Source: Pseudomonas lijiangensis
GTDB lineage: Bacteria; Pseudomonadota; Gammaproteobacteria; Pseudomonadales; Pseudomonadaceae
Reading direction: 5' to 3'
Assembly: GCF_018968705.1 (NCBI RefSeq)
Contig: NZ_CP076668.1
Coordinates: 496,001 to 560,000 of the forward strand
Length of the DNA: 64,000 nt
In this document: positions 39,378-50,759 of the stretch, one piece after another
Position numbering within the stretch: the stretch's first letter is position 1
How the letters are laid out: every line of letters starts with the position of its first letter
Made by a program: the position numbers and the translations under genes
Notes under the pieces: model-generated
What the model saw: only the letters and a program-made list of their open reading frames with translations
Databases searched by the model: none
What the model was told of the DNA's origin: nothing

Positions 39378-41438
39378 ATGGCTTTCGAAGCAATGTTCCA
39401 GCCGATCCAGATCGGCAAACTGACGATCCGCAACCGTGTCCTGAGTACCGCTCACGCCGAGGTCTATGCCACCGATGGCGGGATGACCACCGACCGTTAT
39501 GTGAAGTACTACGAAGAGAAGGCCAAGGGCGGCATCGGCCTGGCGATCTGCGGTGGTTCCTCCAGTGTCGCCATCGACAGTCCCCAGGGCTGGTGGAAGT
39601 CGGTCAACCTGGCCACTGACAAGATCATTCCGCACTTCCAGAACCTTGCCGACGCCATGCACAAGCACGGCGCCAAGATCATGATCCAGATTACCCACAT
39701 GGGCCGTCGTTCCCGTTGGGATGGCGAGCACTGGCCGACCCTCATGTCGCCGTCCGGCATTCGTGAACCGGTCCACCGTGCGACCTGCAAGACCATCGAG
39801 CCGGAAGAGATCTGGCGGGTGATCGGCAACTACGCCAGCGCTGCGGCCCGTGCCAAGGCCGGTGGTCTGGACGGTGTCGAGCTGTCCGCGGTGCACCAGC
39901 ACATGATCGACCAGTTCTGGAGCCCGCGGGTCAACAAGCGCACCGACGAGTGGGGCGGCAGTTTCGAGAATCGCATGCGTTTTGGCCTGGAAGTGATCAA
40001 GGCCGTGCGTAAGGAAGTGGGGCCTGATTTCTGCGTGGGTATCCGTATCTGCGGCGACGAATTCCATCCTGATGGCCTGAGCCATGAGGACATGAAGGAA
40101 ATTGCCAAGTATTACGATGCCACCGGCATGATCGATTTCATCGGCGTCGTGGGCTCGGGTTGCGACACGCACAACACCCTGGCCAACGTTATCCCCAACA
40201 TGAGTTATCCACCGGAGCCGTTCCTGCATCTGGCGGCCGGTATCAAGGAAGTGGTCAAGGCACCGGTACTGCACGCGCAGAACATCAAGGACCCGAATCA
40301 GGCCACGCGGATTCTGGAAGGCGGCTATGTGGATATGGTCGGCATGACCCGTGCCCACATCGCCGACCCGCACCTGATTGCCAAGATCAAGATGGGCCAG
40401 GTTGACCAGATCAAGCAGTGCGTGGGCGCCAACTACTGCATCGACCGCCAGTATCAGGGGCTGGATGTGCTGTGCATCCAGAATGCCGCCACGTCTCGCG
40501 AATACATGGGCGTGCCGCACATCATCGAGAAGTCCACCGGGCCGAAACGCAAGGTGGTGATTGTCGGTGCAGGTCCTGCGGGTATGGAAGCCGCTCGCGT
40601 GTCTGCCGAGCGCGGCCACGACGTGACGCTGTTCGAGAAAAAGGAATTCATCGGCGGCCAAATCACCACCGCCTCCAAGGCACCGCAACGTGACCAGATT
40701 GCCGGTATCACTCGCTGGTACCAACTGGAACTGGCGCGTCTGAAGGTCGATCTGCGCCTGGGGACGGCTGCCGATCCGGCGACCATTCTCGACCTGCGCC
40801 CGGACATCGTGGTGCTGGCAGTGGGCGGTCATCCGTTCCTGGAACAGAACGATCACTGGGGCGCGGCCGAAGGGCTGGTGGTCAGTAGCTGGGACGTGCT
40901 GGACGGCAAGGTTGCGCCGGGCAAGAACGTGCTGGTCTACGACACCATCTGCGAATTCACCGGCATGTCCGTGGCCGACTTCCTGGCCGACAAGGGCTCG
41001 CAGGTCGAGATCGTCACCGACGACATCAAACCCGGCGTCGCCATTGGTGGCACCTCGTTCCCGACCTACTACCGCAGCATGTACCCCAAGGAAGTGATCA
41101 TGACCGGGGACATGATGCTGGAAAAGGTCTACCGCGAAGGCGACAAGCTGGTTGCCGTCCTGGAGAACGAATACACCGGTGCCAAGGAGGAGCGGGTGGT
41201 TGACCAGATCGTCGTCGAAAACGGCGTGCGTCCGGACGAAGAGCTCTATTACGGGCTCAAGGAAGGTTCGCGCAACAAAGGCCAGATCGACATCGACGCC
41301 CTGTTCGCCATCCAGCCGCAACCTTCGCTGAGCCAACCGGGGGATGGCTACCTGCTGTTCCGCATCGGCGACTGCGTGGCCCAGCGTAATACCCATGCGG
41401 CGATCTATGACGGATTGCGGCTGTGTAAGGATTTTTGA
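39378..41438 (+). CDS. dgcA: Dimethylglycine demethylase subunit DgcA
   Basis: A 686-residue flavoprotein of the old-yellow-enzyme/2,4-dienoyl-CoA reductase class. The N-terminal barrel has FQPIQIGKLTIRNRVLSTAH, ITHMGRRSRWDG and SAVHQHMIDQFWSPRVNKRTD. An iron-sulphur region near residues 350-375 has CVGANYCIDRQ…VLC. The C-terminal half has a nucleotide fold (VVIVGAGPAGMEAARVSAERG). It oxidises dimethylglycine to sarcosine with DgcB. The ribosome site is CGAGGATCG. A hairpin repeat separates it from dgcB. Confidence 0.94.
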   Translation: MAFEAMFQPIQIGKLTIRNRVLSTAHAEVYATDGGMTTDRYVKYYEEKAKGGIGLAICGGSSSVAIDSPQGWWKSVNLATDKIIPHFQNLADAMHKHGAKIMIQITHMGRRSRWDGEHWPTLMSPSGIREPVHRATCKTIEPEEIWRVIGNYASAAARAKAGGLDGVELSAVHQHMIDQFWSPRVNKRTDEWGGSFENRMRFGLEVIKAVRKEVGPDFCVGIRICGDEFHPDGLSHEDMKEIAKYYDATGMIDFIGVVGSGCDTHNTLANVIPNMSYPPEPFLHLAAGIKEVVKAPVLHAQNIKDPNQATRILEGGYVDMVGMTRAHIADPHLIAKIKMGQVDQIKQCVGANYCIDRQYQGLDVLCIQNAATSREYMGVPHIIEKSTGPKRKVVIVGAGPAGMEAARVSAERGHDVTLFEKKEFIGGQITTASKAPQRDQIAGITRWYQLELARLKVDLRLGTAADPATILDLRPDIVVLAVGGHPFLEQNDHWGAAEGLVVSSWDVLDGKVAPGKNVLVYDTICEFTGMSVADFLADKGSQVEIVTDDIKPGVAIGGTSFPTYYRSMYPKEVIMTGDMMLEKVYREGDKLVAVLENEYTGAKEERVVDQIVVENGVRPDEELYYGLKEGSRNKGQIDIDALFAIQPQPSLSQPGDGYLLFRIGDCVAQRNTHAAIYDGLRLCKDF

Positions 41439-41445
41439 GGAAAGC

Positions 41446-41527
41446 TGCAAGCTATAAGCTGCAAGCAGCAAGAGAAGACAGCCGATCTGCTGTGCTTTTA
41501 CTTGTGGCTTGCAGCTTATGGCTTGCA
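41446..41527. repeat. Inverted repeat of AGCTGCAAGC type between dgcA and dgcB
   Basis: 21-bp arms TGCAAGCTATAAGCTGCAAG(C) (41446-41466) and its complement (41507-41527), one mismatch, 40-bp loop. It is a complete member of the family also seen at 9658-9784 and 51733-51764. Confidence 0.8.
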
Positions 41528-41547
41528 CCTCGCCCGAGGTGATTCCG

Positions 41548-43509
41548 ATGTTGAACACCCTTCTTCCCCTCCTGCTATTCACAGCCCTGGCCCTTGCGGT
41601 GCTGGGTGCTTTGCGGCGGGTAAAAATGTGGCGCAATGGTCGAGCCTCCAAGGTCGATCTGCTGGGCGGGCTGCTGGCCATGCCCAAGCGTTACATGGTC
41701 GATCTGCACCATGTCGTCGCCCGGGACAAATACATCGCCAATACCCACGTCGCCACGGCAGGTGGTGCGGTGGCGTCTATCGTGCTGGCGATTCTGGTGC
41801 ATGGCTTCGGTCTGCATAACCGCTTCCTGGGCTATGCGCTGCTGCTGATGTCGGCGGTGATGTTCGTGGGGGCGGTGTTTGTCTTTCGTCGTCGTCTCAA
41901 TCCGCCATCGCGCCTGTCCAAAGGCCCTTGGATGCGCTTGCCGAAAAGCCTGATGGCGTTTTCCGTCAGCTTCTTTCTGGTGACCTTGCCGGTTGCGGGA
42001 ATTCTTCCCGAGAACTTCGGTGGTTGGCTGCTGGCCGTGATTCTGGGCGTTGGCGTGCTGTGGGGCGTCAGCGAACTGTTTTTCGGCATGACCTGGGGCG
42101 GGCCGATGAAGCACGCCTTCGCTGGCGCCCTGCACCTGGCCTGGCACCGACGTGCCGAGCGCTTCGGTGGTGGTCGTTCCACCGGTTTGAAGCCGCTGGA
42201 CCTTACTGACCCAAGCGCGCCGCTGGGTGTGGAAAAGCCCGAAGATTTCACCTGGAACCAGTTGCTGGGTTTTGACGCCTGTGTGCAGTGCGGCAAATGC
42301 GAAGCCGCTTGTCCGGCGTTCGCTGCCGGCCAGCCCTTGAACCCCAAGAAGCTGATTCAGGACATGGTGGTCGGCCTCGCTGGCGGCACCGATGCCAAAT
42401 TCGCAGGCAGCCCTTATCCATCCCTCGACGGCAAGGGCAAGCCCATCGGCGAACATGGTGGCAATCCGCATCAGCCCATCGTCAACGGACTGGTGGACGC
42501 GGAAACCCTGTGGTCCTGCACCACTTGCCGGGCATGCGTGGAAGAGTGCCCGATGATGATCGAGCACGTGGACGCCATCGTCGACATGCGCCGCCACCTG
42601 ACCCTGGAAAAAGGCGCGACCCCTAACAAGGGCGCCGAAGTGCTGGATAACCTGATTGCCACCGACAACCCTGGCGGTTTTGCGCCGGGCGGTCGGATGA
42701 ACTGGGCGGCGGATTTGAACCTCAGCCTGCTCAGCGAAAAGAAAACAACCGATGTGCTGTTCTGGGTAGGTGATGGCGCTTTCGATATGCGTAACCAGCG
42801 CACGTTGCGGGCGTTCGTCAAAGTCCTGAAAGCCGCGAAGGTCGACTTTGCCGTGCTGGGTCTTGAAGAGCGCGACAGCGGCGATGTGGCCCGTCGCCTG
42901 GGCGATGAAGCGACTTTCCAGATGCTGGCCAGGCGCAACATCCAGACGCTGTCCAGATACAGCTTCAAGCGCATCGTCACCTGCGACCCCCATAGCTTTC
43001 ATGTGCTGAAAAACGAGTACGGCGCCCTGGGTGGTGACTACCTCGTGCAGCATCACAGTACTTACATGGCTGAACTGCTTCAGTGCGGCACGCTCAAGCT
43101 CGGGCAACACAAAGGTTCCAGCGTGACGTATCACGATCCGTGCTATCTGGGCCGTTACAACGGCGAGTACGAAGCGCCGCGCGAGGTATTGCGCGCCCTG
43201 GGTATCGAGATCAAGGAAATGCAGCGCTCGGGCTTCCGTTCCCGCTGCTGTGGTGGCGGTGGCGGCGCGCCCATTACCGATATTCCCGGCAAGCAGCGGA
43301 TTCCCGACATGCGTATGGAAGACATCCGCGAAACCGGTGCCGAACTGGTGGCAGTCGGTTGTCCACAATGCACGGCGATGCTTGAAGGCGTGGTCGAGCC
43401 ACGACCGATGATCAAGGACATTGCCGAGCTGGTGGCCGACGCCTTGATTGAAGAGCCGGTAGTCAGCAAGTCAGAGCCTGTAAGACGTGAACCAGCGGAG
43501 GTGCATTGA
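41548..43509 (+). CDS. dgcB: Dimethylglycine demethylase iron-sulphur membrane subunit DgcB
   Basis: A 653-residue protein. The N-terminal third has membrane helices (LLPLLLFTALALAVLGAL; a span near LLLMSAVMFVGAVFVF; FSVSFFLVTLPVAGILP). Two 4Fe-4S motifs follow (CVQCGKCEAACPA and CTTCRACVEECPM), then two CCG domains (HDPCYLGRYN…CCGGGGG, VGCPQCTAML) of the heterodisulphide-reductase type. It passes electrons from DgcA toward quinone or the paired flavoprotein. ATG 41548 follows GAGGTGATTCCG. Its stop overlaps the etfA start (TGATG). Confidence 0.93.
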   Translation: MLNTLLPLLLFTALALAVLGALRRVKMWRNGRASKVDLLGGLLAMPKRYMVDLHHVVARDKYIANTHVATAGGAVASIVLAILVHGFGLHNRFLGYALLLMSAVMFVGAVFVFRRRLNPPSRLSKGPWMRLPKSLMAFSVSFFLVTLPVAGILPENFGGWLLAVILGVGVLWGVSELFFGMTWGGPMKHAFAGALHLAWHRRAERFGGGRSTGLKPLDLTDPSAPLGVEKPEDFTWNQLLGFDACVQCGKCEAACPAFAAGQPLNPKKLIQDMVVGLAGGTDAKFAGSPYPSLDGKGKPIGEHGGNPHQPIVNGLVDAETLWSCTTCRACVEECPMMIEHVDAIVDMRRHLTLEKGATPNKGAEVLDNLIATDNPGGFAPGGRMNWAADLNLSLLSEKKTTDVLFWVGDGAFDMRNQRTLRAFVKVLKAAKVDFAVLGLEERDSGDVARRLGDEATFQMLARRNIQTLSRYSFKRIVTCDPHSFHVLKNEYGALGGDYLVQHHSTYMAELLQCGTLKLGQHKGSSVTYHDPCYLGRYNGEYEAPREVLRALGIEIKEMQRSGFRSRCCGGGGGAPITDIPGKQRIPDMRMEDIRETGAELVAVGCPQCTAMLEGVVEPRPMIKDIAELVADALIEEPVVSKSEPVRREPAEVH

Positions 43510-44729
43510 TGAGCGACATTATCCGCCGCGACCCCCGTGCCGAATGGATCGCACGTAACCGTCTGCACCCTTTGCATGCCGCGATGCAGCCCGCACAGAC
43601 CAGTTGGATGGGCCCCAACGGCCTCATGCGCAAGAACGTGCACGGTCTGGGCTTCATCGGCCCCAATGGCATCAAGCGTATCGACCGCAGTGGTGCGCAG
43701 CAGGGCGGGACGGTCAAACGCTCCGCAGCTGCCGAAATCAGCCTGCCGCTGCATCAAGTGCCGGAGCCTGCGTTTTACATCACCGTGGTGCCGGACATGG
43801 TCGGTGGCCGCCTGAGCAGTCATGACCGGGACCTGCTGGGGCTTGCCCATCAACTGGCGGGCAGCGCTGGGGCTGTATTGGCTGTGGTATTTGGCGAACA
43901 CAAGGAAAGCACTTTCGAGACGGCGGGTGTCGACCGCCTGTTGGTTCTTGAAGGTGATGAGTTCAGCGGTTATTCACCGGAGCAGCGTGTGCAAGGGCTG
44001 CGGGCTGTGGATAACCAGTTCAACCCACGGCACTGGCTGCTGCCGGACAGCCGCAGCGGCGGTGGCGAACTGGGTCGGCGTTTCGCTGCCAGCCTGGGCG
44101 AACGTCCGGCGACTCGTGTCTGGCAGGTCAAGGATGAACAGTGCATCGGGCGTGCGGGAGCGGGGCGTGAAGACCTCGCTCGTCCGTTGGCGCGTCTGAT
44201 TCTGGCGGCTGCCGAATGCGCCGAGCCGGTCAGTGAAACGCGCCATGAAGCGTTGCCGGTGGAGTTATCCACAAGTGTTGCGCGCAGTCTGGCACGCATC
44301 GAAGACCTTGGCGCGGTGGCCGTGGATCCTGCAGTTATCCCCATGGCCGAAGCGGAATTCATCTTATCGGGCGGTAATGGCGTCAAGGACTGGGACTTGT
44401 TCCATCGCACGGCAGCGGCTCTGGGCGCGACCGAAGGTGCGTCGCGGGTGGCGGTGGACGATGGTTTCATGAGCCGGGACCGTCAGGTGGGTGCCAGCGG
44501 CACCTGGGTCACAGCACGTGTGTATGTGGCTGTGGGTATCTCCGGTGCGATCCAGCACCTGCAAGGCATCGGCGCTTGCGACAAGGTGGTGGCGGTCAAC
44601 CTGGATGCCAGCTGCGACATGATCAAACGCGCCGACCTGTCGGTGATCGGTGAAAGCGCAGCCATCCTCCAGGCCTTGATCGATGCGGTCGAGGCTTATC
44701 GCAACGAGGCAAAACGTGATGCGGCCTGA
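43509..44729 (+). CDS. etfA: Electron transfer flavoprotein, alpha subunit (dgc-linked)
   Basis: A 406-residue protein. The C-terminal FAD domain has GATEGASRVAVDDGFMSRDRQVG, VGISGAIQHLQGI and the end INLDASCDMIKRADLSVIGE-like segment (here VVAVNLDASCDMIKRADL). The N-terminal 75 residues are extra compared with housekeeping EtfA. Start ATG 43509 overlaps the dgcB stop, so it is coupled to the demethylase. Two perfect DnaA-box 9-mers lie inside the gene (44006 and 44265). Confidence 0.92.
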   Translation: MSDIIRRDPRAEWIARNRLHPLHAAMQPAQTSWMGPNGLMRKNVHGLGFIGPNGIKRIDRSGAQQGGTVKRSAAAEISLPLHQVPEPAFYITVVPDMVGGRLSSHDRDLLGLAHQLAGSAGAVLAVVFGEHKESTFETAGVDRLLVLEGDEFSGYSPEQRVQGLRAVDNQFNPRHWLLPDSRSGGGELGRRFAASLGERPATRVWQVKDEQCIGRAGAGREDLARPLARLILAAAECAEPVSETRHEALPVELSTSVARSLARIEDLGAVAVDPAVIPMAEAEFILSGGNGVKDWDLFHRTAAALGATEGASRVAVDDGFMSRDRQVGASGTWVTARVYVAVGISGAIQHLQGIGACDKVVAVNLDASCDMIKRADLSVIGESAAILQALIDAVEAYRNEAKRDAA

Positions 44730-44745
44730 GCGCGGGAGTTCATCT

Positions 44746-45540
44746 GTGGATAATGCGTCATTGAACAAGGCCTCGTTGCAGGTCATGAGTCTGGTGTCCA
44801 TCGGCGCTCACCCGACCTCGGGACGCGCCCGCCGCGCCGAGCAGGATGCCCGCGCCGTGGAACTGGGTTTGCAACTGGCTGGGGATAACTTGCAGGTGCT
44901 GCACGCCGGCAATGCCCAGGAGCCTGCACTGCGAGCTTATATGGGCATGGGTCTGGACGAACTGCAGGTGCTGGAGCAGCCTGAAGGCGCCGATGCACTG
45001 CCTGCGCTGACCGATTACATCCGTGATTCAGCGGTGCAGATCGTGCTCACCGGCAGCCAGGCTGAAACCGGCGAAGGCTCGGGCATGCTGCCGTTTCTGC
45101 TGGCGGAAAGGCTGGGCTGGCCGCTGGTGGTGGGGCTGGCCCAGGTGGAGTCTCTGGATAACGGCGTGGCCCTTGTCCTGCAAGCCTTGCCGCGAGGCCA
45201 GCGACGTCGCCTCAAGGTTCGCCTGCCGTTTCTGGCCACTGTGGATAACGCAGCGCCAAAACCACGCCAGAGCGCTTACGGTCCTGCACAGCGTGGGGCC
45301 TTGGGTGTGGAGCAGGTGGAAGTGGTGGAGGATGAGTTACTCACAGCCCATGGCCTGCAACCTGCCAAACCCCGCCCCAAACGCCTGAAAGTGATCAAGG
45401 CCAAGAGCGGCGCCGACCGCATGAAAGCCGCAACCGCCAAGGCCAGCGGCGGCACCGGGCAAGTTCTCAAGGGCGTCAGCCCGCAAGAGGGGGCCGCGGC
45501 GATCCTCAAGTTGCTGGTGGAAGAAGGCGTCATTCGATAA
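44746..45540 (+). CDS. etfB: Electron transfer flavoprotein, beta subunit (dgc-linked)
   Basis: A 264-residue partner of EtfA. The family pattern ISIGAHPTSGRARRAEQDARAVELG (here LVSIGAHP…) and GSQAETGEGSGMLPFLLAE identify it; the C-terminal end is rich in Lys and Ala. The start is GTG 44746 with GGGAG eight bases ahead; an ATG at 44719 would overlap etfA by 11 bp. The start codon lies within a perfect DnaA box (44745-44753), and another lies inside the gene (45240-45248). Confidence 0.9.
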   Translation: MDNASLNKASLQVMSLVSIGAHPTSGRARRAEQDARAVELGLQLAGDNLQVLHAGNAQEPALRAYMGMGLDELQVLEQPEGADALPALTDYIRDSAVQIVLTGSQAETGEGSGMLPFLLAERLGWPLVVGLAQVESLDNGVALVLQALPRGQRRRLKVRLPFLATVDNAAPKPRQSAYGPAQRGALGVEQVEVVEDELLTAHGLQPAKPRPKRLKVIKAKSGADRMKAATAKASGGTGQVLKGVSPQEGAAAILKLLVEEGVIR

Positions 45541-45552
45541 AACCCCTCAATT

Positions 45553-45594
45553 CTGTGGGAGCGAATTCATTCGCGAATGAATTCGCTCCCACAG
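45553..45594. repeat. Perfect 42-bp palindrome (fused REP pair)
   Basis: Two REP arms (CTGTGGGAGCGAATTCATTC… and complement) joined with no spacer make a perfect palindrome just after etfB. It may also serve as the operon's terminator hairpin, though no T run follows. Confidence 0.85.
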
Positions 45595-45600
45595 GTGGAG

Positions 45601-46171
45601 TTGTGCACATTCCCTGTGCGCCCACCTGTGGATAACGTGTTCGCGGGTTTCTGAACCCCATGTAAACCGTGCCTTACAGGCCTCTGGTTGAAAAATGATC
45701 AACCTAACTTGCGGTTTTTACTGGCTTTTCCATGTGGATAAACAATCCACTGCTTCTCATCTCCTTGCTCAATTGCCCACAAACTCTGTTGGCCTCTCTG
45801 TGGACAAGTTGTTCGTGATCTCCTGTAGCCCATATAAAACGTGGCTTACAAGGTTTCGTATAAAAAATAATCAATTGATCGTCAATGGCTATAAATGCCG
45901 CTGTAAAGCCTTGCTGTATCACGCCTGGAGCAGTTTTCCACAGTGAGTGACTCACAAACCCGAAGTTGCCCCCAAAGTCTGTTGGCGCTTCTGTGGATAA
46001 GGTGTTCGTGATCCCTTGAAGGCCAATTAATACAAGGCTTTCAAAGGTTTGATCAAAAAATGAACAGTATGTCCCGCAATGGAGGCAATCAGTAAGTCAC
46101 GGTTTTTTCAGGTTTTTTGAGAGCGAAAAAATCGACTTTCCCACAATTGCTGTGGGCTGCTCTGTGGATAA
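45601..46171. other. AT-rich gene-free region with repeated DnaA boxes (putative DnaA-binding locus)
   Basis: Perfect DnaA 9-mers (TGTGGATAA) lie at 45627-45635, 45733-45741, 45992-46000 and 46163-46171, with close variants TGTGGACAA (45799-45807) and TTTTCCACA (45934-45942). Four more perfect boxes lie just upstream (44006, 44265, 44745, 45240). Three units align over about 90 bp: box, (G/C)NTGTTCG, TTACAAGG-like core, then an AT tract of AAAAAATNATCAA kind (about 45689, 45862, 46052). TCTGTTGGC precedes two boxes. No convincing gene is seen. The layout resembles a DnaA titration or origin-like site; no dnaA, dnaN or rpmH is nearby, so this is not the main oriC. Confidence 0.6.
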
Positions 46172-46215
46172 GTTGTTTGTTGTGTGCGGGAGAGGGCGGC
46201 AGGCTTGGTGTATGA

Positions 46216-46251
46216 GGGGGTTGGATGTTTTTTGATCAACATCCAACCCCC
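46216..46251 (-). terminator. Hairpin after gbcA
   Basis: A 14-bp stem (GGGGGTTGGATGTT with AACATCCAACCCCC) and an 8-base loop, seven bases beyond the gbcA stop. No T run follows on the gbcA strand, so termination is likely but not certain. Confidence 0.65.
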
Positions 46252-46257
46252 GCAGGG

Positions 46258-47556
46258 TCATTCGTGGTTGACCGCTACACCTTTGAGGTAGGGCGCAGGT
46301 TCTGCCCCGAGGTTTTCCAGTACCCGCGAGCTGTACCAGTCGATGAAGTTGACCACACCGAACTCATAGGTCTTGGAGTACGGGCCTGGCTGGTAGGCGC
46401 TGGAGTTGATACCGCGCTGGTTTTCCTCGGCCAGACGACGGTCCTGATCGTTGGTGGCGTCCCACACCTGACGCATGCGCTCAACGTCGTAATCGACGCC
46501 TTCCACGGCATCCTTGTGCACGATCCACTTGGTCGTGACCATGGTTTCCTGCGCGCTGATCGGCCATACCGTGAAGACGATGATGTGATCGCCCATGCAG
46601 TGGTTCCAGGAGTGAGGCAGGTGCAGGATGCGCATCGAGCCCAGGTCCGGGTTCTGGATACGGCCCATGAGTTTCTTGCAGCCGACCTTGCCATCCATGG
46701 TCATCGACACAGTGCCCTTGAGCAGCGGCATGCGCACGATGCGGTTGCGCAGGCCGAAGCTGGCGTGTGCGTAGGGAATCTTCTCGGCGTCCCAGGCAGC
46801 GGCGGAGGCGGCCACATGGTCCTTGAAGGTCTGATCGGCACGCGGGTCGGTGACGTCGTCCCATTCCAGCAGGGTTTTCAACAGCTCCGGGTGTGAGCCG
46901 TTGCAGTGGTAGCACTCGCGGTTGTTCTCGATCACCAGCTTCCAGTTGGCTTTTTCCATCAAGGTGGTTTGCACCGCCACCTTGGTGTTTTCCATGTCGT
47001 AGGGTTCCATGTAGTGCTTGAGCGTGGCCAGGAACTCATCGATGGCAGGTGGATTCTCCGCCAGGCTGATGAAGATATAGCCGCCTGCGGTTTTGACGTT
47101 CACGGGCTTGAGGCTGAAGTTCTTCATGTCGAAGTCGTCGCCCATCTCGGTGCCCGCGTACAGCAGGCGTCCGTCCAGCTCGTAGGTCCACTGGTGGTAA
47201 GGGCAGACCAGCTTGGCGACCTTGCCTTTCTCGCCGGTGCACAGGCGCGAGCCTCGATGGCGGCAGACGTTGTGGAAAGCATTCACGCTGCCATCCGGGG
47301 CGCGGACGACGAGGATCGGGTTCTTGCCGATCTGCAGTGTCAGGTAGTTGCCCTTGGCCGGGATTTCGCAGGTCATGCCCGCAATCAGCCATTCCTTGTG
47401 AAAGATTTCCTGCATGTCGATTTCAAACAGCCGGTCATCACTGTAGAAAGGCTGCGGCAGCGAATAGGTGCGCTCGCGGTTCTGCAGCATCTGGGCAGTG
47501 GCCTTGCGTGCAGGTTCCAGCGGGTCGCCAAGGCTCAGGGTTGCGGTGATGTCCAT
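46258..47556 (-). CDS. gbcA: Glycine betaine monooxygenase, Rieske oxygenase subunit GbcA
   Basis: A 432-residue Rieske non-haem iron oxygenase demethylating glycine betaine to dimethylglycine and formaldehyde. The Rieske 2Fe-2S ligands are C98, H100, C118 and H121 (CRHRGSRLC, CPYHQW). The mononuclear iron site has H217 and H222 in ECYHCNGSHPE. Start 47556 follows GAGGGAATC. It is divergent from gbcB across a 320-bp regulatory region. Confidence 0.96.
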   Translation of the reverse strand: MDITATLSLGDPLEPARKATAQMLQNRERTYSLPQPFYSDDRLFEIDMQEIFHKEWLIAGMTCEIPAKGNYLTLQIGKNPILVVRAPDGSVNAFHNVCRHRGSRLCTGEKGKVAKLVCPYHQWTYELDGRLLYAGTEMGDDFDMKNFSLKPVNVKTAGGYIFISLAENPPAIDEFLATLKHYMEPYDMENTKVAVQTTLMEKANWKLVIENNRECYHCNGSHPELLKTLLEWDDVTDPRADQTFKDHVAASAAAWDAEKIPYAHASFGLRNRIVRMPLLKGTVSMTMDGKVGCKKLMGRIQNPDLGSMRILHLPHSWNHCMGDHIIVFTVWPISAQETMVTTKWIVHKDAVEGVDYDVERMRQVWDATNDQDRRLAEENQRGINSSAYQPGPYSKTYEFGVVNFIDWYSSRVLENLGAEPAPYLKGVAVNHE

Positions 47557-47879
47557 TGTTCAGATTCCCTCATGACCGCATCGTTGGCGGCCTGCGAATG
47601 TGGCTAATACGGTTCTTTGCAGCGCTGCACGCAAGGCGATTGGGGGTCGCTCATGCCGGTGAGTTTATTCATGGCTGTTAAGGGGCGAGTGTGGAGGCGG
47701 GCGCGGAGTGAACCTTATCCATGGGCGACATGGCCGAATCCGTTCCCGACTAGGGAACCCACGGTCTGTGGGGGCTGGTCGCCGTAAGTACGTGAATGTC
47801 GTTGATAGGTAAATGCGCCTCCTGCGCGTTACGCAGAATCCCCATCATAAAGGCCGACAGTCGGTCGTGGAGATCAAGC
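47557..47879. promoter_or_regulatory. Divergent gbcA/gbcB promoter region
   Basis: A gene-free 323-bp region controlling both subunits. It holds CGACAT at 47726-47731 (ATGTCG on the gbcA strand) and inverted segments TCCCGACTAGGGAAC nearby. The betaine-responsive regulator GbdR is known to act on these genes in P. aeruginosa; its site here is not identified. Confidence 0.4.
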
Positions 47880-48980
47880 ATGTCCCAGAATTTTCTCAAC
47901 CCGGTAACCACCCAGACATGGGCCAATGGCCGCCATCTTGTGCGCGTCGTCAAGGTGATCCAGGAAACCTGGGATGTAAGGACCTTCTGCTTCATGGCAG
48001 ACCAGCCGATCCTGTTCTTCTTCAAGCCCGGTCAGTTCGTCACCCTGGAGCTGGAAATCGATGGCGTGCCGATCATGCGCTCCTACACCATTTCCAGTTC
48101 GCCGTCGGTGCCCTACAGCTTCTCGATTACCGTCAAGCGCGTGCCGGGAGGCAAGGTCTCCAATTACCTGCACGACACGCTGCATGAAGGCCAGGAGCTG
48201 GCAGTGCACGGGCCTGTCGGCTTGTTCAACGCCATCGACTTCCCCAATCCGAAGATCCTGTATCTCAGCGGCGGTGTCGGTATCACGCCGGTCATGTCCA
48301 TGGCCCGCTGGTTCTACGACACCAATGCCAACGTCGACATGGTGTTTGTACACAGCGCCCGCTCGCCCAAGGACATCATCTATCACCGCGAGCTGGAGCA
48401 CATGGCGTCGCGGATCGATAACTTCAGTCTGCATCTGATCTGTGAGAAGCACGGCCTTGGTGAGCCCTGGGCGGGTTATCGCGGTTACCTGAACCAACGG
48501 ATGCTGGAGTTGATGTCGCCGGACTACAAGGACCGCGAGGTGTTCTGTTGCGGGCCGACGCCATACATGGCTGCGGTCAAGCGCATGCTGCAGGAAAGCG
48601 GCTTCAACATGGCGCAGTACCATGAAGAGTCCTTTGGCGCGACGCCACCAGAGGTGCGCGCCGAAGCCGTGGAGCATGCGGAAATCGCTGCGGATGCGCC
48701 GGAAGTCGATTTGGCGGATCTGCATCAGGTGGAATTCACCGACACCGGCAAGAGCATTCGTGTTGCGCCGGGGGAAACCGTCCATGCGGCGGCTTCCAAG
48801 CTGGGCCTGATGATTCCCAAGGCCTGCGGCATGGGCATCTGTGGCACCTGCAAGGTCATGAAGCTCAGTGGCGAAGTGGAGATGGAGCACAACGGCGGTA
48901 TCACCGACGAAGATGTGGAAGAGGGTTACATCCTGTCGTGCTGCAGCGTGCCCAAAGGGGATGTGCGGATCGAATATTGA
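47880..48980 (+). CDS. gbcB: Glycine betaine monooxygenase, reductase subunit GbcB
   Basis: A 366-residue electron donor to GbcA. FAD-binding PIMRSYTISSSPS and NAD-binding LSGGVGITPVMSMARWF lie in the first half, then FCCGPTPYM. The C-terminal plant-type 2Fe-2S domain has C316, C321, C324 (CGMGICGTC) and a last Cys near 353. ATG 47880 (MSQNFLNPVTTQTW) with GGAGAT upstream is chosen; the ORF extends 28 codons further without support. Confidence 0.95.
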   Translation: MSQNFLNPVTTQTWANGRHLVRVVKVIQETWDVRTFCFMADQPILFFFKPGQFVTLELEIDGVPIMRSYTISSSPSVPYSFSITVKRVPGGKVSNYLHDTLHEGQELAVHGPVGLFNAIDFPNPKILYLSGGVGITPVMSMARWFYDTNANVDMVFVHSARSPKDIIYHRELEHMASRIDNFSLHLICEKHGLGEPWAGYRGYLNQRMLELMSPDYKDREVFCCGPTPYMAAVKRMLQESGFNMAQYHEESFGATPPEVRAEAVEHAEIAADAPEVDLADLHQVEFTDTGKSIRVAPGETVHAAASKLGLMIPKACGMGICGTCKVMKLSGEVEMEHNGGITDEDVEEGYILSCCSVPKGDVRIEY

Positions 48981-49015
48981 TCCACAGGGGCGCATGTCAG
49001 GGGCAATGAATCACT

Positions 49016-49106
49016 TTGTGGGAGGCAGCTTGCTGGCGACTTCAGCGTACAAACGCAGAATATCTGCCAGTTTCAGGCCTTTTCGCCAGCAAGCTGCCTC
49101 CCACAA
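49016..49106. repeat. REP pair (REPIN), GGGAGGCAGCTTGCTGGCG type, copy 3
   Basis: Arms as in copies 1 and 2, interior 47 bp, tail CTTGACTGATCGGCATTA. Left flank GGCAATGAATCACTTTG matches copy 2 closely. Confidence 0.85.
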
Positions 49107-49167
49107 GTGATAGACATACCTTGACTGATCGGCATTACATCGAAGGTGCGCCCGGTGCTTTCAGGTT

Positions 49168-49428
49168 TTACTTGTGACTCTGTTTGTAAGTCGCCAGTGC
49201 CGGCAGCAATTGCTGATCGATGGCCTGGCGCACCGCTGGCAGTATGGTCGCACTGCCCGTCAGCAATTGTTCAACCAGACGCCGCAAGGCTGTGGCGCGT
49301 TCTTCGGTCAATCCACATACCGCTTGTGCACAGGCCTGCTCGGCCGTTGAGCCAATTGGCATCTCGAACCCCAGCGCTCTGAGCTGGCTCAGCAAATCCT
49401 CTTGATCAACCAAATCCGCATGCATCAT
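49168..49428 (-). CDS. Small protein of unknown function (86 aa)
   Basis: An 86-residue, mostly helical, cytoplasmic protein (QEDLLSQLRALGFEMPIGST, LTEERATALRRLVEQLLTG, LLPALATYKQSHK). Start 49428 has AAAGGAAC nine bases upstream; the next codon is also ATG. I do not recognise the family. Nearest neighbours are gbcB and the propeller gene, neither of which suggests a role. Confidence 0.6.
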   Translation of the reverse strand: MMHADLVDQEDLLSQLRALGFEMPIGSTAEQACAQAVCGLTEERATALRRLVEQLLTGSATILPAVRQAIDQQLLPALATYKQSHK

Positions 49429-49680
49429 GACGAGTGTTCCTTTGATCGGGTAAGGCCCTGATTCTGGTAGCGCGTCACTGTCGCGGCAAGCCCGCCTGCC
49501 GGGGATGGCTTGATTACCTACGGGCAGGTCGCTTTTTGAACGGCTTGGTCCGGTAAAAAGCCGATCAGTGGTCAGGTTTATGCGCTTTACCTGTTATTTC
49601 TGACAGTACCCAACCCGTTGTTGCGGGTATTCAATAATGCCCTGTTATTCCTGATCCGATATGGAGGACGCGCTTTGGTA

Positions 49681-49827
49681 ATGACTCATTCAATGGAGCA
49701 CATCATTGATCTGTTAACGATTGACGTTTTAAAGGCAGCACCTGTTTTCTCGAATGATGGTCTGAACAGGCCAAGGGATTGGTGGGTTAAATGCAAAGAA
49801 AAATATTCACAGGTACGGCTTTCCTGA
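49681..49827 (+). CDS. Short ORF overlapping the propeller gene (doubtful)
   Basis: A 48-codon ORF (MTHSMEHIIDLLTIDVLKAA…) with GGAGG 12 bases ahead of its ATG (seven ahead of an in-frame TTG at 49675). It overlaps the start of the propeller gene by 37 bases in another frame. It may be a translated leader, the true N-terminus of the propeller after a frameshift, or chance. Confidence 0.35.
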   Translation: MTHSMEHIIDLLTIDVLKAAPVFSNDGLNRPRDWWVKCKEKYSQVRLS

Positions 49828-50759
49828 GCCAAAAGAAAGAATTTCCCTCCCATGTATCGTCTCCCCATGAAGCAAGACTTCTTGCCAGTATTCCTTTGAA
49901 TTTTTCACCCAAGGAAATTGATGTAAGCCCGGATGACACTCTGCTTTTTGTTTCTCACGACGATGGGACCGGGGTCAGTTTTATCGATATCGAGAGCCGT
50001 GAAGTCGTATCCAGTATCAAGAGGGGTTGCGTAGGCGATGTGGCTGTCAGCCCGGATGGACGCAGGCTTTATGTCACAGGACAGAATGAATGCTCAGTGA
50101 TTGATGTCCAGCGCAATGCACTGGTCGCGATCCTCGATTCGGAGGGTGTCGATAAAATTGCGGCCAGCCCGGACGGGAGTTTCATCTGCCTGTCTTTCCG
50201 CTACGCGCCCGGTGGGCTTATCCGTATGGTTGACGCCATTGATTACAATGCCGAAAGTGATTTCGACCTGGGCAAAATGTCGAATGCAGTTCTGGTCATG
50301 GCAATCAGTCCGGACGGCCATTACATCTATGCATCGGAACTTGCCGATGATCCCGACAGTGTTGTCGCGATGATCGATACGCGGGATTACTCGCAAGTGG
50401 ATATTCCGGGCTTCAGAAACCCATGCTCCATGGCAGTCAGTGCGGATGGCAGTCAGCTTTATGTCGGCGGTTTTGATGAAATGTTCGTGACCGATACGGC
50501 CACGCAGAAGATTCTGTATACGCTGGAGTTCGGTTCAAGGGGTTACCCCGTCAATCTCATCGGTGGAACACCGGATGATCGCTATGTGTACGCCATTCAT
50601 TCCTGCAATTTCGATTTGTACAGAATCGATACGATTGAAAGAACAGCCACGCGCATCGACTTCTTTCATTCGGTAGGTGGCGCAGTCTTGAACCGTAAAG
50701 GTGATCGTCTCTATACCACTCACCCAGACAGGAAGTGGATTTCCATTTATGCCTTGTAA
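49791..50759 (+). CDS. YncE-like beta-propeller protein
   Basis: A 322-residue protein with six or seven repeats of about 40 residues carrying VSPDDTLLFVSHDD, VSPDGRRLYVTGQN, ASPDGSFICLSF, ISPDGHYIYASEL, VSADGSQLYVGGF and related blocks, the YVTN-type propeller pattern. No signal peptide is seen in this frame, while known YncE proteins are exported, so the true start may be elsewhere. The ribosome site is weak (AAGGGATTGG). The stretch 49,600-50,760 looks AT-richer than its neighbours, suggesting transfer. Ligand unknown. Confidence 0.75.
   Translation: MQRKIFTGTAFLSQKKEFPSHVSSPHEARLLASIPLNFSPKEIDVSPDDTLLFVSHDDGTGVSFIDIESREVVSSIKRGCVGDVAVSPDGRRLYVTGQNECSVIDVQRNALVAILDSEGVDKIAASPDGSFICLSFRYAPGGLIRMVDAIDYNAESDFDLGKMSNAVLVMAISPDGHYIYASELADDPDSVVAMIDTRDYSQVDIPGFRNPCSMAVSADGSQLYVGGFDEMFVTDTATQKILYTLEFGSRGYPVNLIGGTPDDRYVYAIHSCNFDLYRIDTIERTATRIDFFHSVGGAVLNRKGDRLYTTHPDRKWISIYAL

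Follow-up and report, generated by a model that had tools for sequence, protein, structure and literature searches.

A phased array of units of three DnaA boxes between etfB and gbcA of Pseudomonas, a candidate DnaA regulatory locus

The DnaA-box cluster and its repeated unit

The window analysed here is a 64,000-nucleotide stretch of the Pseudomonas lijiangensis chromosome (host genome G000, one contig of 5,870,232 bp; nearest named relatives, Pseudomonas capsici and P. cichorii), and it contains a cluster of DnaA boxes that runs from the electron transfer flavoprotein genes etfA and etfB into the gap (45541-46257) between etfB and the glycine betaine monooxygenase gene gbcA. The perfect box, TTATCCACA, occurs eight times in the window, at 44006 (-), 44265 (+), 44745 (-), 45240 (-), 45627 (-), 45733 (-), 45992 (-), and 46163 (-). 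A preliminary description of this DNA had reported eight perfect boxes in 2.2 kb and no perfect copy elsewhere in the 64 kb, and exact matching agrees with it at every position. Dinucleotide shuffles of the window contain a mean of 0.25 boxes and a maximum of 2, and 8 boxes were reached in 0 of 100 shuffles. In the whole genome there are 133 copies of TTATCCACA, compared with 20 of the reversed pattern; counted by hand over all 133, the densest 2.2-kb stretch is the etfB-gbcA cluster (8 boxes), and the next is oriC with 6 (5,868,244-5,870,158). Both near-matches described earlier are present, TGTGGACAA on the reverse strand at 45799 and TTTTCCACA on the forward strand at 45934, and the gap is AT-rich as described (G+C content of 0.46-0.47 versus about 0.60 around it, in 500-bp windows). 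The division into four coding and four intergenic boxes stands except for the box at 44745, which follows the stop codon of etfA where this gene adjoins etfB and is not plainly inside a gene.

The boxes of the gap are arranged in four units, each with three DnaA boxes (I to III) and a Fis-like site, and two further boxes lie between units. Bit scores are those of R1, an nhmmer model trained on 59 diverse units, of which units 1 to 4 are members. Fis-like sites are scored on the six fixed positions of the consensus GnnYAnnnnnTRnnC (PMC10380432).

45601-45700, + strand: unit 1 (74.6 bits); box I TTGTGCACA at 45601-45609, forward; box II TGTGCGCCC at 45615-45623, reverse, weak; box III TGTGGATAA at 45627-45635, reverse, perfect; Fis-like 15-mer at 45686-45700 (5/6)
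45733-45741, - strand: extra perfect box between units 1 and 2, 106 bp past box III of unit 1 and with neither box I nor box II upstream of it
45773-45872, + strand: unit 2 (74.8 bits); box I TTGCCCACA at 45773-45781; box II TGTTGGCCT at 45787-45795; box III TGTGGACAA at 45799-45807, one mismatch; Fis-like GTATAAAAAATAATC at 45858-45872 (6/6)
45934-45942, + strand: relaxed-consensus box TTTTCCACA between units 2 and 3
45966-46065, + strand: unit 3 (80.3 bits); box I TTGCCCCCA at 45966-45974; box II TGTTGGCGC at 45980-45988; box III TGTGGATAA at 45992-46000, perfect; Fis-like GATCAAAAAATGAAC at 46051-46065 (6/6)
46137-46237, + strand: unit 4 (60.2 bits); box I TTTCCCACA at 46137-46145; box II TGTGGGCTG at 46151-46159; box III TGTGGATAA at 46163-46171, perfect; Fis-like GGATGTTTTTTGATC at 46223-46237 (5/6)

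All four units of the window have the same layout: a weak forward box I, 5 bp, a weak reverse box II, 3 bp, and a reverse box III, so that the starts of successive boxes are 14 and 12 bp apart. Box III is strong in three of these units and has one mismatch in the other, and the Fis-like site lies at +59 or +60. Relative to the strong box, the unit consensus is TTRCCCMCA at -26, CTGTtGG at -13, TGTGGATAA at 0, TGTTCGC at +11, a weakly palindromic CTGCAGGCC...GGCTTGCAG stretch, and a GATCAAAAAATGATC-like sequence at +59. The TGT at +11, which is invariant in the 59 diverse units, may be a fourth, weak DnaA site. We rejected a hairpin or RNA formed by the CTGCAGGCC...GGCTTGCAG stretch that follows the strong box: the best stem scores are 5.97, barely above the 5.38 of shuffles (360 distinct units), and neither this stretch nor anything else in positions 40000-50000 of the window has an Rfam match.

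The match to box I at -26 averages 7.46, 5.86, and 6.80 of 9 positions in first, middle, and last units, respectively, against a background of 2.1-2.3. When 65 other perfect boxes from the examined stretches of G000 were aligned, -26 and -12 were the top offsets, with 7 of 65 each compared with an offset mean of 0.7-0.8; five of the seven matches at -26 and three of the seven at -12 sit in further copies of the unit. The Fis motif is found at a fixed place. Of 343 units, 134 carry the exact consensus between +58 and +61, versus 6 of 1715 shuffled units, with at most 3 of 343 in any other block of offsets, and at least five of the six positions are matched there in 332 of 343 units versus 97 of 1715 shuffled ones (at most 28 of 343 in other blocks). 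Since 15 lenient 15-mers (at least 5/6) occur in 45500-46270 and single 5/6 sites mean little, the evidence for Fis is the fixed offset. A Fis homologue that is 59-64% identical to E. coli Fis was found in 8 of 8 genomes, and all 39 genomes searched for it have a second, Hda-sized relative of DnaA, which we take to be Hda.

Conservation, phasing, and the boxes in etfA and etfB

Conservation was assessed in 121 etfB loci, all of distinct sequence, which comprise the window, 40 loci from genus genomes (38 of them single-contig), and the best 80 of 364 loci from named genomes; EtfB itself is present in 141 of 149 genus genomes searched. (G and L numbers denote genomes and loci of the comparison set.) We defined an array as three or more perfect boxes on one strand, separated by less than 300 bp, downstream of etfB. 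An array is present in 93 of the 121 loci. In 39 of the 93 its start is no more than 600 bp from etfB, and among the 65 that have gbcA in the stretch there are 43 in which its end is no more than 600 bp from that gene. In these 93 loci, which were chosen for having an array, etfAB plus array (225,032 bp) contains 665 perfect boxes and the 1,417,355 bp outside contain 68, which is a density of 2.96/kb inside versus 0.048/kb in the flanks. Whether the boxes are kept in close relatives was a point raised in the preliminary description: the two nearest relatives, L091 and L092, hold all eight boxes, and an array is kept in 93 of 121 loci, but it is absent at etfB from a clade of six genus loci and from 20 loci of other genera.

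An EtfA plus EtfB tree was made from 115 of the loci, leaving out 6 of the 121 (short contigs or partial proteins). On this tree the array label changes 11 times, compared with 21.5 times for shuffled labels, and the six array-less rows form one clade next to the midpoint root. A perfect-box array is absent from 23 of the 115 loci, and R1 still detects units in 5 of these 23; among the remaining 18, gbcA lies beyond the stretch in some, for which absence is not proven. First, middle, and last units each hold a distinct consensus across species. Because these position-specific sequences persist from species to species, the array is, on the sequence evidence, old and vertically inherited.

The spacing of the boxes is also regular. 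Gaps between successive boxes peak at 106, 150, 161, 172, 182, and 193 bp, and the last five of these values step by one helical turn. Of 272 gaps, the 238 within 140-200 bp were used to test phasing and the 34 outside this range were left out. The best period of the 238 gaps is 10.7 bp, with an R of 0.95, a figure that is the one most inflated by shared ancestry; for 43 distinct spacing patterns (94 gaps) R is 0.92, whereas 2000 null trials gave at most 0.38. Random draws yielded five equally regular cluster centers in 2 of 20,000 cases. In the window, the steps from one box III to the next are 172, 193, and 171 bp, which are 16.07, 18.04, and 15.98 turns of 10.7 bp, and the 106-bp gap of the window recurs at other loci. 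The phased spacing predicts a structure in which the units lie on one face of the helix.

The cluster is extended upstream by the perfect boxes of the etfAB region:

44006-44014, - strand: perfect DnaA box in etfA (codons A-V-D-N), present in 109 of 121 loci
44265-44273, + strand: perfect DnaA box in etfA (codons TTA TCC ACA), perfect in 101 of 121 loci
44745-44753, - strand: perfect DnaA box at the etfA-etfB junction, close to where etfB probably starts, present in 24 of 121 loci
45240-45248, - strand: perfect DnaA box in etfB, perfect in 80 of 121 loci

Ranked by conservation among all 9-mer windows, in 55 diverse array-bearing loci, the first etfA box is 5th of 1210 (the overlapping windows 499-501 are invariant) and the second is 17th of 1210; the etfB box is 19th of 775 in 71 loci. 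In the second etfA box, leucine is encoded by TTA in 85 of the 93 array-bearing loci, a codon that accounts for 2.4% of the leucine codons in their etfA and etfB genes. Threonine is encoded there by ACA, a minority codon for this amino acid, in 93 of 93. This codon usage, together with the 9-mer ranks, points to selection on the coding boxes at the level of DNA and not of protein alone.

Conserved boxes that would bind DnaA and do nothing else could be the whole function of the locus. According to this explanation, the array and the coding boxes only hold DnaA, their early duplication lowers free DnaA after initiation, and the layout of the unit gives cooperative binding. In keeping with it, the strong etfAB boxes are conserved even though we noticed no box I or box II beside them by eye, and the many perfect boxes of the cluster lie at a place that would replicate early, 0.092 L from dnaA in G000 (L, the unit for distance from dnaA, is a fraction of the chromosome). 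The 133 perfect boxes of G000 also crowd around oriC: 127 of them are within 0.25 L of dnaA, and only one lies between 1.33 and 4.0 Mb. There is a precedent in E. coli, in which DnaA is titrated on the chromosome and boxes are enriched near oriC (PMC12371093). The excess in the origin region is alike in the two organisms, but in the E. coli work it consists of a broad enrichment of relaxed motifs, whereas in Pseudomonas it consists of perfect boxes, some of them in conserved arrays. A sink, however, could do without a fixed 14-plus-12-bp layout, a Fis site at constant distance, or phasing between units, and we consider pure titration rather unlikely.

Related units and a single-copy site elsewhere on the chromosome

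Units related to those of the array are dispersed on the chromosome. Further copies in G000 lie at three loci, at 657.3-657.8, 742.2-742.5, and 5346.1-5346.3 kb, with paired units in L009:7318-7786, L010:7165-7471, and L015:6066-6280. These copies are apparently intergenic, between open reading frames taken as genes, and their neighbors differ from etfB and gbcA. With respect to the possibility, anticipated earlier, that similar clusters occur in many places, the densest cluster of the genome is the one at etfB, and smaller clusters of related units are found at three other loci.

At E≤0.1, R1 has between 5 and 34 matches in each of 25 of 25 chosen genomes from five genera, with a best E-value of at most 1.7e-6 in each. 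In the control, 20 stretches and the window of G000, all reversed, gave a best E-value of 0.75, versus ≤1.2e-6 for eight forward sites. Distances from dnaA were taken for 111 R1 matches, among the matches listed, in 18 genomes with a placed dnaA (seven genomes in which dnaA was not placed were left out). Among these listed matches, 110 of 111 are within a quarter of the chromosome of dnaA and 109 of 111 are at 0.3-1.1 Mb, the exceptions being at -2038 kb (G003) and -23 kb (G012); most of the 18 genomes have matches on both arms. The etfB locus itself is at a median of 518 kb from dnaA, or 0.06-0.17 L, in 39 genomes. Across the order, R1 finds matches at E≤1e-3 in 46 of 76 genomes, including 43 of 73 outside the family; E-values in this search are rough and single weak matches untrustworthy. 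The best three of the matches outside the family (L244, L245, and L246, from three families) have a box II that matches at 9, 8, and 9 of 9 positions, which R1 did not impose, because box II is weak in its training set. In central units outside the training set (18 rows from 17 loci, one of which appears twice), the reverse match at -12 averages 5.83 and ranks highest after box III. We also observed about seven R1 matches within 1.1 kb at a different locus in another genus of the family (G259:C1:6007455-6008544).

Units that are both tandem and dispersed are what one would expect of a mobile or selfish repeat that happens to hold DnaA boxes, and a relic origin could hold them as well. The position-specific consensus described above argues against a mobile repeat and for old, vertical inheritance, and from genome to genome the loci keep similar distances to dnaA. 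A relic origin had been put forward in the preliminary description, which also noted correctly that no dnaA is nearby: the gene occupies genome positions 4-1500, some 540 kb from the locus. Cumulative GC skew continues to rise through the locus, with no turn there, and by eye (no alignment was made) no likeness to the oriC of G000 was seen. We regard a mobile repeat or relic origin as highly improbable and find the suggestion of a relic unsupported. Only slightly better, and still very improbable, is a chromosome-organizing role, in which DnaA and Fis would condense origin-proximal domains without acting on initiation. The phased units at etfB and the related loci on both arms around dnaA would suit such a role, but it has no independent evidence in its favor, and the DARS-like layout of the unit (see below) points to nucleotide exchange instead.

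A different element has the box order of the E. coli reactivation sites DARS1 and DARS2:

G000:C1:4127849-4127883 (L012:7849-7883): TTATCCACA-N5-TGTGGATAA-N3-TGTGAACAG, E. coli DARS box order

Of 149 genus genomes, 122 contain exactly one copy of the pair TTATCCACA-5-TGTGGATAA, and none contains the reversed control. The nine loci that were read all have TGTGAACAG in the position of box III on one side. In G000 the site is flanked by a small open reading frame without an NCBIfam name and by an FKBP-isomerase-like gene. Its distance from dnaA is 0.24-0.34 L, with a median of 0.297, in the 21 genomes placed among the matches listed, compared with 0.206 for E. coli DARS2 and 0.329 for DARS1. R1 matches it weakly (14.1 bits, E = 0.006). 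This single-copy site may be the true DARS counterpart of Pseudomonas, and the arrays would then be a related but different device.

Comparison with E. coli sites, proposed function, and gene context

In the E. coli sequence NC_000913.3, the core of DARS1 is TTATCCACT-5-TGTGGATAA-3-TGTGTATTA and that of DARS2 is TTATTCACC-5-TGTGGATAG-3-TGTGAAGAA; DARS2 also contains another triplet laid out in this way. The DARS2 core was located between two primer sequences for replacing boxes I-III that are given in PMC4585315, and the assignment of boxes is our own. The Pseudomonas unit and both DARS cores share the order forward-5-reverse-3-reverse, with steps of 14 and 12 bp, and a noncoding place. DARS2 has a Fis site nearby, and the Pseudomonas unit has a Fis motif at a fixed offset, a likeness at the level of motifs. 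In contrast, Pseudomonas has a tandem array of four units where an E. coli DARS has one core, box II is weak in the array, and the strong box is box III in the Pseudomonas unit and not box II as in the E. coli DARS.

The position of the array resembles that of another E. coli site, datA. A datA-like array would promote hydrolysis of DnaA-bound ATP soon after initiation, and its distance from dnaA is indeed close to that of datA (0.101 L); like datA, which lies at about 0.1 of the chromosome, it is intergenic and has several DnaA boxes. The arrangement of the boxes differs. The inverted pair of datA has a start-to-start step of 12 bp and not 14, datA does not consist of four repeated units with Fis-like sites, and it is the DARS layout that the units share. 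In datA an IHF site lies beside DnaA boxes 2, 3, and 7. The need of datA for that site does not fit the arrays: among all 93 (66,095 nucleotides) there is no exact TAAnnnnTTGATW, when five rounds of shuffling gave 6 in total, so that about one is expected. We therefore find a datA-like function improbable. In Bacillus subtilis there are several intergenic DnaA-box clusters away from oriC, and we know of no three-box unit with a Fis site in them.

Taken from its sequence features, the etfB-gbcA locus is very probably a functional DnaA-binding regulatory locus. The preliminary description had proposed a DnaA-binding locus for titration or reactivation, and conservation, helical phasing, codon-level constraint, and the three-box units all support that proposal. 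The array probably helps to time the start of DNA replication. As to how, we give a probability of about 0.5 to a main action by DARS-like nucleotide exchange, with titration as a by-product. DnaA on boxes I and II would meet head to head, an arrangement known from the DARS of E. coli, while box III would anchor DnaA and Fis would bend the DNA, and phasing would set the units on one face of a larger complex. Such an array would change the nucleotide state of DnaA by promoting release of ADP, as DARS does, and would also hold DnaA as a sink. The solitary strong boxes in etfAB extend the cluster. At 0.06-0.17 of the chromosome from dnaA, the copy number of the array would double early in the replication cycle.

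Several observations weigh against a DARS-like action. Box II (reverse, at -12) matches at only about 4 of 9 positions in first and middle units and at 5.63 in last units. High lenient Fis scores are found at +1 and +3 as well, within the strong box. DARS2 of E. coli requires IHF (PMC5742627), and unlike DARS2 the Pseudomonas arrays have no IHF motif that we found; near-matches are not in excess in the arrays either, although a consensus search of this kind may miss degenerate sites. R1 has no match to E. coli DARS1, DARS2, or datA at E≤1, and PMC4245941 describes the DARS2 core as confined to relatives of E. coli. The etfB locus is near the relative position of datA and not near the mid-replichore positions of DARS2 (0.206) or DARS1 (0.329), as measured from E. 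coli oriC. Some spacings at other loci (112-113, 123-124, and 166-167 bp) are about half a turn off phase. The bias toward the origin is shared by the perfect boxes of G000 and so is not special to the units. Finally, the array is missing at etfB from the clade of six genus loci, and in a family-wide EtfB search, in which 30 of 56 matches were examined as loci with 1.5-kb flanks, 6 of 30 loci have an array and 24 of 30 have no perfect box at all, 20 of them in other genera. Given its degenerate box II, its different position, and the failure to find an IHF motif, we do not claim membership of DARS for the array, which is DARS-like at the level of sequence.

A wider proposal is possible, and we hold it tentatively. 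Pseudomonas, and perhaps much of Pseudomonadales, may time replication by a distributed system of DARS-core/Fis arrays that lie on both arms at about 0.3-1.1 Mb from dnaA. The phased array between etfB and gbcA would be foremost among them, the mid-replichore single-copy site would accompany them, and the arrays would read and reset the nucleotide state of DnaA as forks pass. This architecture would differ from the E. coli set of datA, DARS1, and DARS2. Control of DnaA by chromosomal sites has been worked out mainly in E. coli, and patterned DnaA/Fis loci in most of the Pseudomonas examined would, if the proposal is correct, show such control to be wider and differently built. In the literature searched, mostly without subscription papers, we found no DnaA-box locus near etfB or gbcA and no DARS in Pseudomonas. 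The array gives exact deletion targets for studying the timing of origin firing in a large and well-used group of bacteria.

The genes that bound the array are as follows:

43509-44729, + strand: etfA, electron transfer flavoprotein alpha subunit (NF051845, 711.7 bits; cut-off 600)
44755-45540, + strand: etfB, electron transfer flavoprotein beta subunit, start uncertain (NF051844, 423.1 bits; cut-off 350)
46258-47556, - strand: gbcA, glycine betaine monooxygenase oxygenase subunit, convergent with etfB (NF058607, 799.8 bits; cut-off 670)

DnaA is a known transcription factor (PMC8203912), and with boxes in and around the operon it might control transcription of etfAB or gbcA. However, the two genes converge and the gap holds only their 3' ends, and no sigma-70-like promoter was found in 45400-46400 (a search that covered no other promoter types). 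Inserted DNA has shifted the array away from etfB in L064, L083, and L145 and away from gbcA in L052 and L053, and in each of these loci the array is intact; other copies of the unit adjoin other genes. DnaA-dependent control of these genes thus seems most improbable. Small open reading frames of 83 amino acids are present on both strands of the gap. Just after etfB, at 45553-45594, there is a perfect 21+21-bp palindrome, CTGTGGGAGCGAATTCATTCG, which resembles a Pseudomonas REP element.

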